A DNA stretch of 58,609 nt from Bacteroidota bacterium (lineage in GTDB: Bacteria > Bacteroidota > Bacteroidia > Bacteroidales > Prolixibacteraceae). The position numbers were made by a program, and so were the translations under genes. Positions within the stretch are counted from its first letter, which is position 1. Every line of letters begins with the position of its first letter. The notes below the pieces were generated by a model. It made no database searches. It had not been told where the DNA came from and saw nothing but the letters and a program-made list of their open reading frames with translations. Location: assembly GCA_029265715.1 (NCBI GenBank), contig JAJUGZ010000014.1, positions 1 through 58,609 on the forward strand. The letters are read 5' to 3'. Below are positions 275-58,609 of the stretch, piece after piece.

Positions 275-1378
275 ATGGAGAATTTTATTGTTTCTGCACG
301 AAAATACCGACCGGATACATTTCAAACAGTTGTCGGACAGGCGTCGATCACCGCCACCCTAAAGAATGCGATCCGGAACAAGCAACTGGCCCATGCCTAC
401 CTGTTCTGCGGGCCCCGCGGGGTCGGTAAGACTACCTGCGCCCGTATTTTCGCCAAAACAATCAATTGCCAGAACCTGACCGCCGACACCGAGCCCTGCA
501 ATCAATGCGAATCGTGTAAAGCGTTTAACGACAACCGTTCGTACAACATTCACGAACTCGATGCCGCATCGAACAACTCGGTTGACGATATCCGGAACCT
601 GACCGACCAGGTACGGATCCCTCCGCAGATCGGGCATTACAGCATCTATATCATCGACGAAGTGCACATGCTGTCGCAGGCGGCTTTCAATGCCTTCCTG
701 AAAACGCTGGAAGAACCGCCGCGTCACGCCATTTTTATTCTGGCAACCACCGAAAAACACAAGATCATCCCGACAATCCTGTCGCGCTGCCAGATTTTCG
801 ACTTTAACCGAATAAAAATCAGCGACATATCCGGACATTTGGGCAATGTGGCCAAAAACGAATCGGTGCAGATCGAACCCGAAGCACTAAACGTAATTGC
901 CCAAAAGGCTGACGGGGCCATGCGCGATGCACTTTCGATTTTCGACCAGATCGTCAGTTTCTCCGGAAAAACTATTACCTATAAAGACGTAATCGGCAAC
1001 CTGAACGTGCTGGATTACGATTATTACTTTCGGCTGGTCGACCAATTCCTGAAGAACGACATTCCCGGCGTGCTGATGCTGTTTAACGACGTGTTGAACA
1101 ACGGATTCGATGGTCATCATTTTATATCGGGGCTAAGTTCCCATTTCCGCGATATTATGGTTTGCAAAGACCCGGTAACCGTTCAGCTGCTCGAGGTTGG
1201 TGGCGAAATTCGCGAAAAATACAAAGCTCAGGCAGCGGTATGCAGCAGCGATTTCCTGCTCGAAGCGTTGAAAATAGCCAACGAATGCGACCTTCAGTAT
1301 AAAGCCAGCCAGAACAAACGCCTGCTTGTTGAACTCGCGCTAATTAAGATATCTCAGCTTACCTTAAAAAAAAAATAG
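275..1378 (+). CDS. dnaX: DNA polymerase III gamma subunit (zero-frame product of dnaX)
   Basis: AAA+ clamp-loader ATPase that loads the sliding clamp and organises the replicase. Walker A GPRGVGKTT lies near residues 46-54, the four-cysteine zinc module near residues 64-80 (INCQN, PCNQCESC), Walker B IIDEVH near 125, and the SRC arginine-finger motif near 170. I place the start at ATG 275 (MENFIVSARKYRPDTF), because the upstream extension in the same frame lacks family similarity and overlaps the promoter. The frame ends at TAG 1376-1378 directly after ten A residues, at the end of the ATPase and collar domains (367 aa). That length equals a gamma form. The missing tau C-terminus follows in the -1 frame. 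Confidence 0.93.
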   Translation: MENFIVSARKYRPDTFQTVVGQASITATLKNAIRNKQLAHAYLFCGPRGVGKTTCARIFAKTINCQNLTADTEPCNQCESCKAFNDNRSYNIHELDAASNNSVDDIRNLTDQVRIPPQIGHYSIYIIDEVHMLSQAAFNAFLKTLEEPPRHAIFILATTEKHKIIPTILSRCQIFDFNRIKISDISGHLGNVAKNESVQIEPEALNVIAQKADGAMRDALSIFDQIVSFSGKTITYKDVIGNLNVLDYDYYFRLVDQFLKNDIPGVLMLFNDVLNNGFDGHHFISGLSSHFRDIMVCKDPVTVQLLEVGGEIREKYKAQAAVCSSDFLLEALKIANECDLQYKASQNKRLLVELALIKISQLTLKKK

Positions 1379-2007
1379 CTGACGGTCCGGAAGAAATAAC
1401 CCTTGAACCCATTTTTTCGGCAATTCCCGCTACAACCACACAAACAACGCCCCCGGCGACAAAGCCGGGTATCCCAGGTACCGCGCAAGTCCCGGAACCC
1501 GAACATCCGGTGAAGAAAGTCATCAAAAAGTTTGGGAACTCGTTTACACCATCGCTAAAAGATGCACTGGAGGGCAAATTCAACCAGGAAGAAAAACAGG
1601 AAGATGCCAAAGAGGTGATGAAATATTACATCTCGGAAGACCTCGAAGAGCCGTTCACACAGGAACAGTTTGAAGCCAAGTGGACGGAGTTTCTTTCCCG
1701 GTTAACCGATCGGCCCAACCTGCGGACAACCCTGTCGAACACGCCGGAACTGCAACCCGGATATAAATTATTGCTTAAAATCGGGAATTCGGTCCAGGAC
1801 GAAGATGTCCGGCTGATAAAACCAGAATTGGTTTCGTGGCTGCGCAAAGAATTGCGCAACACCCGTATCGAGCTTCTGACCCAGATCGAAAAACAGGAAA
1901 CCACCCGGATAATCTATTCCGATACAGAAAGGTTACAGGCCATGCTCGAAAAAAACCCGGACCTGAAGCTGCTGAAACAAAAATTTAACCTTGACTTTAA
2001 TCCCTAA
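1348..2007 (+). CDS. dnaX: DnaX tau-specific C-terminal region, -1 frame
   Basis: This frame continues dnaX after the A10 run. It encodes a Pro/Thr-rich linker (about 45 residues), then a helical, charged C-terminal domain ending KFNLDFNP, as in tau proteins of Bacteroidota. A GTG at 1510 could be taken for an independent start, but the linker upstream is open and in character, so I read it as the second half of one gene. Tau's C-terminus binds the replicative helicase and polymerase alpha. Read through the slip, the full protein would be 577 residues, a normal DnaX length. Confidence 0.8.
   Translation, partial: DISAYLKKKIADGPEEITLEPIFSAIPATTTQTTPPATKPGIPGTAQVPEPEHPVKKVIKKFGNSFTPSLKDALEGKFNQEEKQEDAKEVMKYYISEDLEEPFTQEQFEAKWTEFLSRLTDRPNLRTTLSNTPELQPGYKLLLKIGNSVQDEDVRLIKPELVSWLRKELRNTRIELLTQIEKQETTRIIYSDTERLQAMLEKNPDLKLLKQKFNLDFNP
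1366..1375 (+). promoter_or_regulatory. A10 slippage site between dnaX gamma and tau frames
   Basis: Ten consecutive A residues immediately precede the zero-frame TAG. The -1 frame has a stop at 1345-1347, so it is open only from 1348 onward. Any switch must therefore occur in the 31 bases 1348-1378, which contain the run. A -1 ribosomal slip, or one extra A in the transcript, joins the frames into a 577-residue tau. Slippery A runs at this boundary are known in dnaX of E. coli (ribosomal) and Thermus (transcriptional). A missing A in the assembly is the alternative. Confidence 0.7.
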
Positions 2008-58408: not shown

Positions 58409-58472
58409 TGTTTTCTTATTATTTGCCTTACATATCCACAAGCCGCCAAATACCCTACCGTATTTTTTATTT

Positions 58473-58609
58473 GGTTCTTCACAGAAATGCGTACCTGAAT
58501 AAATAAAGCAGTAAATTTAGAATAAAAAATGTCAACGAGTTTGCTCTATCATGGATTCGGTTTAACTGATCAGGAATACCTGAAAACTGAATATCGGAAC
58601 GGAACGGTG
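58473..58609 (+). mobile_element. Right partial insertion sequence (ISL3-like), 5' end only
   Basis: Inverted copy of 1-136 with two mismatches. The tip is GGTTCTTCACAGAAATGCG at 58473; the frame opens at ATG 58528 (first residues MSTSLLYHGFGL) and runs off the end. The transposase points outward, away from the window. It lies 64 bases upstream of the FecR-like gene. Confidence 0.75.

Follow-up and report, generated by a model that had tools for sequence, protein, structure and literature searches.

A conserved run of ten adenines at the gamma/tau boundary suggests a built-in slip site in dnaX of Prolixibacteraceae

Introduction

Transcriptional slippage in the dnaX gene of Thermus thermophilus was reportedly described by Larsen et al. 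in 2000. The slippage in Thermus dnaX is also treated in passages of Baranov et al. 2005 (PMC1088944) and Atkins et al. 2016 (PMC5009743). In Escherichia coli, dnaX likewise gives two clamp-loader proteins, and the passages of PMC5009743 and PMC3711429 describe a slip site A_AAA_AAG with an upstream Shine–Dalgarno (SD) sequence and a downstream stem-loop, gamma being the shifted product; the role of gamma in this species has long been disputed (passages of PMC5009743). According to the same passages of Atkins et al. 2016, one nucleotide can swap the roles of the two products, and some bacteria seem to be reversed. The two-ORF dnaX is presented as a new structural type in passages of Antonov et al. 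2013 (PMC3711429), which count 17 such genes in 12 genera, nine of them with A10, and propose transcriptional realignment; these passages name Chloroherpeton and two Chlorobium species, and the A10 species of the supplementary figure may include members of Bacteroidota. A dnaX frameshift of Blochmannia lies, in the passage of PMC3017870, inside the tau-only part and thus in a different place from the gamma/tau junction. Among the titles and abstracts that searches of open-licence papers listed, those on transcriptional slippage included, none dealt with dnaX of Bacteroidota.

The locus studied here is of this known kind, a dnaX with a putative slip site at an A run, represented by Thermus and by the two-ORF genes with A10. 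Like the latter, it has a gamma ORF and a tau tail in two frames, with the tail at −1 at the DNA level. With Thermus dnaX, as described in part of the literature cited, it has in common an A run of at least nine, near stops in both other frames and gamma and tau as products, which are here predicted; whereas Thermus has A9 and tau in the genomic frame, our locus has A10 and gamma in the genomic frame. The predicted two clamp-loader proteins per gene are the likeness to E. coli. To the description of Antonov et al. 2013 we add the whole family, the paired stops, the synonymous constraint, loci of the opposite direction and changes of polarity.

Junction and Reading Frames

The window, the whole 58,609-nucleotide stretch of DNA analysed, is contig JAJUGZ010000014.1 of a Prolixibacteraceae assembly (GCA_029265715.1). 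Direct reading confirmed what the first-pass annotation had said of its dnaX (Table 1): ten A residues run straight into TAG and end a zero-frame product of 367 residues that begins at an ATG, whereas the −1 frame is shut by TAA 1345–1347 and thereafter open as far as TAA 2005–2007. The claim that an eleventh A would give a single continuous frame also held, as the computed insertion yielded a product of 577 residues. The annotation had not mentioned that the third frame closes immediately too: the TAG lies 0 nt and the TGA 4 nt from the run. The 4.2-Mb genome contains 16 exact A10 runs, and in 129 dnaX genes of the family every other A run has at most eight residues (20 runs of eight). The junction run is thus above chance, as A10 is rare in the genome, has no comparable counterpart elsewhere in dnaX and recurs in relatives.

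Table 1. Coordinates of the features of the dnaX junction (window positions) and of the coaBC gene of the same genome
Feature	Coordinates	Strand	Evidence
Gamma ORF of dnaX (ATPase, lid, collar; 367 aa), ends at TAG	275..1378	+	NF011531, TIGR02397, PF13177, PF22608
A10, putative slip site	1366..1375	+	Direct reading; family conservation; genus codons 365-370 without synonymous change
TAG, ending the genomic (A10) frame	1376..1378	+	Direct reading; constraint on the overlapping tau-frame Ile codon
TGA, closing the third frame (reached with one A fewer or two extra)	1380..1382	+	Direct reading; T at third base of codon 2
Tau-specific frame, comprising the Pro/Thr linker and the C-terminal domain (predicted tau of 577 aa after a slip)	1375..2007	+	NF011531 420-613; pN/pS; predicted fold
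coaBC	L265 348-1556, G000:C6:43569-44774	-	A10 at CoaC/CoaB boundary, stops in both other frames

The two frames match both ends of one DnaX model. The zero-frame part covers positions 1–365 of the 614 in NF011531/PRK14971 (E 5.9e-225, 748.7 bits) and the tail its positions 420–613 (E 5.4e-22, 78.3 bits), in agreement with the tau-type C terminus noted earlier; the model has a cut-off of 685 bits and, as the parts were scanned as two fragments, the first alone passes it. Within the genus, the gamma part had a median pN/pS of 0.074, the linker 0.50 and the tail 0.277, with dS saturated in 25, 103 and 124, respectively, of the 210 pairs. Given an alignment of 94 of the 221 readable tails, positions 1435–2004 were predicted to fold confidently (mean pLDDT 84); from the single sequence, the mean pLDDT was 42. 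When searched with Foldseek, the predicted fold had no match in the PDB at E ≤ 0.001, the weak hits including the C-terminal domain of E. coli tau (2aya, E 0.48) and DciA (7ykm, E 0.22). We find it very improbable that the tail is decaying as a remnant, or that it is made as a protein of its own from a start inside the −1 frame. The first ATG, GTG or TTG of the tail frame is the GTG at 1510, from which a protein of 165 residues is conceivable. Against these readings stand the purifying selection on the tail, its match to the DnaX C terminus, its predicted fold, the distance of 132 nt from the gamma stop to that GTG, and the conservation of the tail frame in the genus right after the run.

Conservation of the Run and of the Split

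A gene search with query P0001 found dnaX in 131 of 140 genomes of the family and in 21 of 23 of the genus, and we fetched the junctions from all 131, the window's own included. Two genomes of the genus, G006 and G021, with an estimated completeness of 98–99%, contained neither part of dnaX and gave only weak hits to other genes; the absences are probably assembly gaps. One locus (L222), cut off upstream of the run, was excluded, leaving 130 readable junctions; another (L176) stops 8 nt past the run, and its two stops were counted but it was left out of the codon counts, which cover 129 loci. The run was A10 in 118 of the junctions, A11 in 9 and A9 in 3, counts that represent related species and not independent events. 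Within the genus, 19 of the 21 loci had A10, one A9 and one A11, in all 21 followed by TAGCTGA or TAGTTGA. A slip is required for tau in 126 of the 130 junctions; in the other four, all A11, tau is in frame.

The first-pass annotation had held that an assembly error or a strain mutation must be excluded, the true gene then being a single A11 frame. Adding one A does unite the frames, and four species of the family do have A11 and a single frame. Yet 11 of the split genes come from one-contig assemblies (G001, G035, G036, G040, G067, G068, G070, G073, G076, G113 and G114) and the gamma parts are 70–100% identical; with so many junctions split, and 11 of them in such assemblies, a family-wide assembly error is not credible, and we judge an assembly error or a recent strain mutation very improbable. 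Nor did the comparison with relatives reveal uninterrupted frames lacking the run, as the run was present in every readable junction. The family-wide conservation thus supports the earlier proposal of a programmed slip at the gamma/tau boundary, with gamma made by standard decoding and tau by slipping, and suggests that the run is an intrinsic slip site, from which one gene would give both a short and a long protein, and not an error.

Constraint on the Two Stops

In 129 of the 130 family junctions, the two frames that do not lead into tau are both closed within 20 nt of the run, and in 90 within 7 nt; elsewhere in these genes, paired stops as close were found at 12.25% and 0.87%, respectively, of 67,427 codon positions. 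The codons of the tau frame that overlap these stops are restricted as well. The first, when isoleucine, was ATA in 82 of 82 family loci (12.7 expected), and the second, which encodes various amino acids, ended in T in 125 of 129 (45.4 expected); the ATA expectation was derived from each gene's own codon use, and both counts come from related sequences and are hence not independent. In the genus alignment, the eight least synonymously variable of 503 seven-codon windows begin at codons 360–367, at the junction, and codons 365–370 showed no synonymous change at all. These patterns indicate that the synonymous sites are held so as to preserve both stops. As a second stop is needed only by a process reaching all three frames, its maintenance favours slippage of the polymerase, though the third-frame stop could merely limit the damage from slipped mRNAs.

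Polarity Changes across Bacteroidota

The view that a split dnaX is unexpected in Bacteroidota did not survive a wider comparison. From an even draw of 148 genomes of the phylum, none belonging to the window's own order, we read the junctions of the 36 class-mates: 35 had A9 or more and one A7, tau being in frame in 20, at +1 in 14 and at −1 in 1, and gamma is in the genomic frame in 15 of the 36. The two-ORF dnaX with A10, already published in 2013 (passages of PMC3711429), weakens the surprise further. A second set consisted of named loci, the best 80 of 594 confirmed, which may overlap the G-numbered genomes (L040 and L209 have an identical junction). Of these, 61 had A9 or more, two A7 and 17 no A run of seven or longer; among the 61 with the run, tau was in frame in 45, at +1 in 15 and at −1 in 1. 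Paired stops within 20 nt were found in 53 of these 61 loci and in 30 of 35 class-mates, less strictly than in the family.

On a FastTree phylogeny of 209 rows (2 of 211, with fewer than 250 residues, were omitted), the polarity changes at least 16 times, while the run itself appears or disappears 8 times. Of the 203 inner branches, 62 were starred; counting only these, the tau-in-frame label must still change at least 12 times. In either polarity, A10 is more frequent than any other length and was found in 50 of 69 loci with tau in frame and in 139 of 152 with tau at +1. Among the 226 loci with a run of nine or more, most split ones need +1 nt, and five need −1 (or +2): L099, L221 and L250 with A10, and L027 and L149 with A9, for which a one-base sequencing error is possible. 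The persistence of the putative slip site across much of the phylum, although the polarity has switched again and again, suggests selection for both products.

We also looked for a substitute site in the 17 named loci lacking the run and in L048, which has A7. Near the end of the collar in L047, L055, L056 and L057, the gamma/tau boundary carries GGGGCGTAG, a run of G, followed by TAG in another frame; it is perhaps another slip site, or only codon use.

Proposed Mechanism of Slippage

On the evidence of the sequences, we consider it likely that dnaX makes gamma and tau via programmed transcriptional realignment at A10. RNA polymerase would slip on the run and produce mRNAs with a varied number of A residues: those with 10 or 13 would terminate at the TAG and those with 9 or 12 at the TGA, either stop giving a gamma of about 367–369 residues with the ATPase and collar, and those with 11 or 8 would read on into the tau tail. 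As slippage of the polymerase reaches all three frames, both stops would be useful and the length of the run free to drift. What the sequences show is the anatomy, its conservation and the constraint acting on the tail and the two stops; we infer that slippage occurs in the cell, that the polymerase and not the ribosome is responsible, and in what ratio the products arise.

Programmed −1 ribosomal frameshifting at A_AAA_AAA, the chief alternative, would instead make tau from the unslipped mRNA, as an upside-down version of E. coli dnaX. This heptamer, a −1 ribosomal slip site, is in phase within the window's run, so the ribosome may contribute; −1 at the DNA level is also the required direction in 123 of the 126 split family loci, but in the five loci of the opposite direction such a shift would run into a stop. 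Under a ribosomal shift, the third-frame stop has no role, though it is constrained. Elements of the E. coli type were not found at the junction: the run has no AAG and hence no A_AAA_AAG site, the surroundings show no structure beyond that of shuffled sequences (z 0.54), and an SD-like 4-mer is upstream in just 25 of the 130 family loci; a passage of PMC9976891 reports that Bacteroidia ribosomes do not recognise SD sequences. Atkins et al. 2016, in the passages of PMC5009743, mention reversed dnaX candidates of the ribosomal kind. Taken together, we judge this ribosomal origin of tau to be unlikely. Between transcriptional realignment and a ribosomal shift, species with A9, A10 and A11 at an otherwise equal site offer a natural experiment separating slippage of the polymerase from that of the ribosome.

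A hairpin CAGCT...AGCTG around the run was considered as a stimulator and rejected, folding being no better than in the shuffles. All five pairs are intact in 16 of the 21 genus loci, and the remaining 5 have one mismatch.

A Similar Run in coaBC

We read the 15 other exact A10 runs of the genome and found one inside coaBC (TIGR00521), between the Flavoprotein (6–178) and DFP (188–370) domains and with stops of the other frames at 4 and 8 nt. The gene was matched in 53 of 60 sampled family genomes, and 50 of these loci were fetched. A run of A9–A11 was present at the boundary in 47, of which 25 have an uninterrupted genomic frame and 22 are split; the exceptions have A7 (L303), have no run (L305) or end before the site (L327). 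Both other-frame stops lie within 20 nt in 44 of the 47 and within 9 nt in 41, compared with 13.4% and 1.8% of 8,592 positions past the run. At class level, where 59 genomes matched and the best 29 loci were read, 6 had A9 or more, and none of them was split.

In view of these patterns, coaBC is possibly a recoded gene, so far undescribed, whose slippage would yield CoaC by itself as well as CoaBC. The main text of Antonov et al. 2013 mentions neither coaBC nor pantothenate, searches of open-licence papers found none joining phosphopantothenoylcysteine with slippage or programmed frameshifting, and among the matches listed for coaBC with frameshift and slippage, the one paper that has all three terms does no more than count coaBC as one gene. 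With a slight lean in its favor, we propose that A10 transcriptional slippage serves in this family as a device at borders between domains in two or more housekeeping genes, among them dnaX (gamma/tau) and coaBC (CoaC or CoaC–CoaB); the length of the run would be held for the rate of slipping, leaving the product of the genomic frame free to drift. Long open frames of this genome contain at least three further exact A10 runs, at codon 333 of 474 (L273), 31 of 368 (L274) and 29 of 366 (L278), which count against the specificity of A10 as a slip site. Eight exact A11 runs of the genome were read as well, and none was mid-way in a long sense open frame. If the proposal is true, the lasting conservation of the A10 device would mean selection for gamma and for free CoaC. 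Essential genes such as dnaX and coaBC can seem broken in genomes of the family though they are probably intact.

Elsewhere in the window, a repeat of about 140 bases is found at the contig ends (1–141 and, on the minus strand, 58467–58608) and also starts several other contigs; it might resemble the end of a mobile element.
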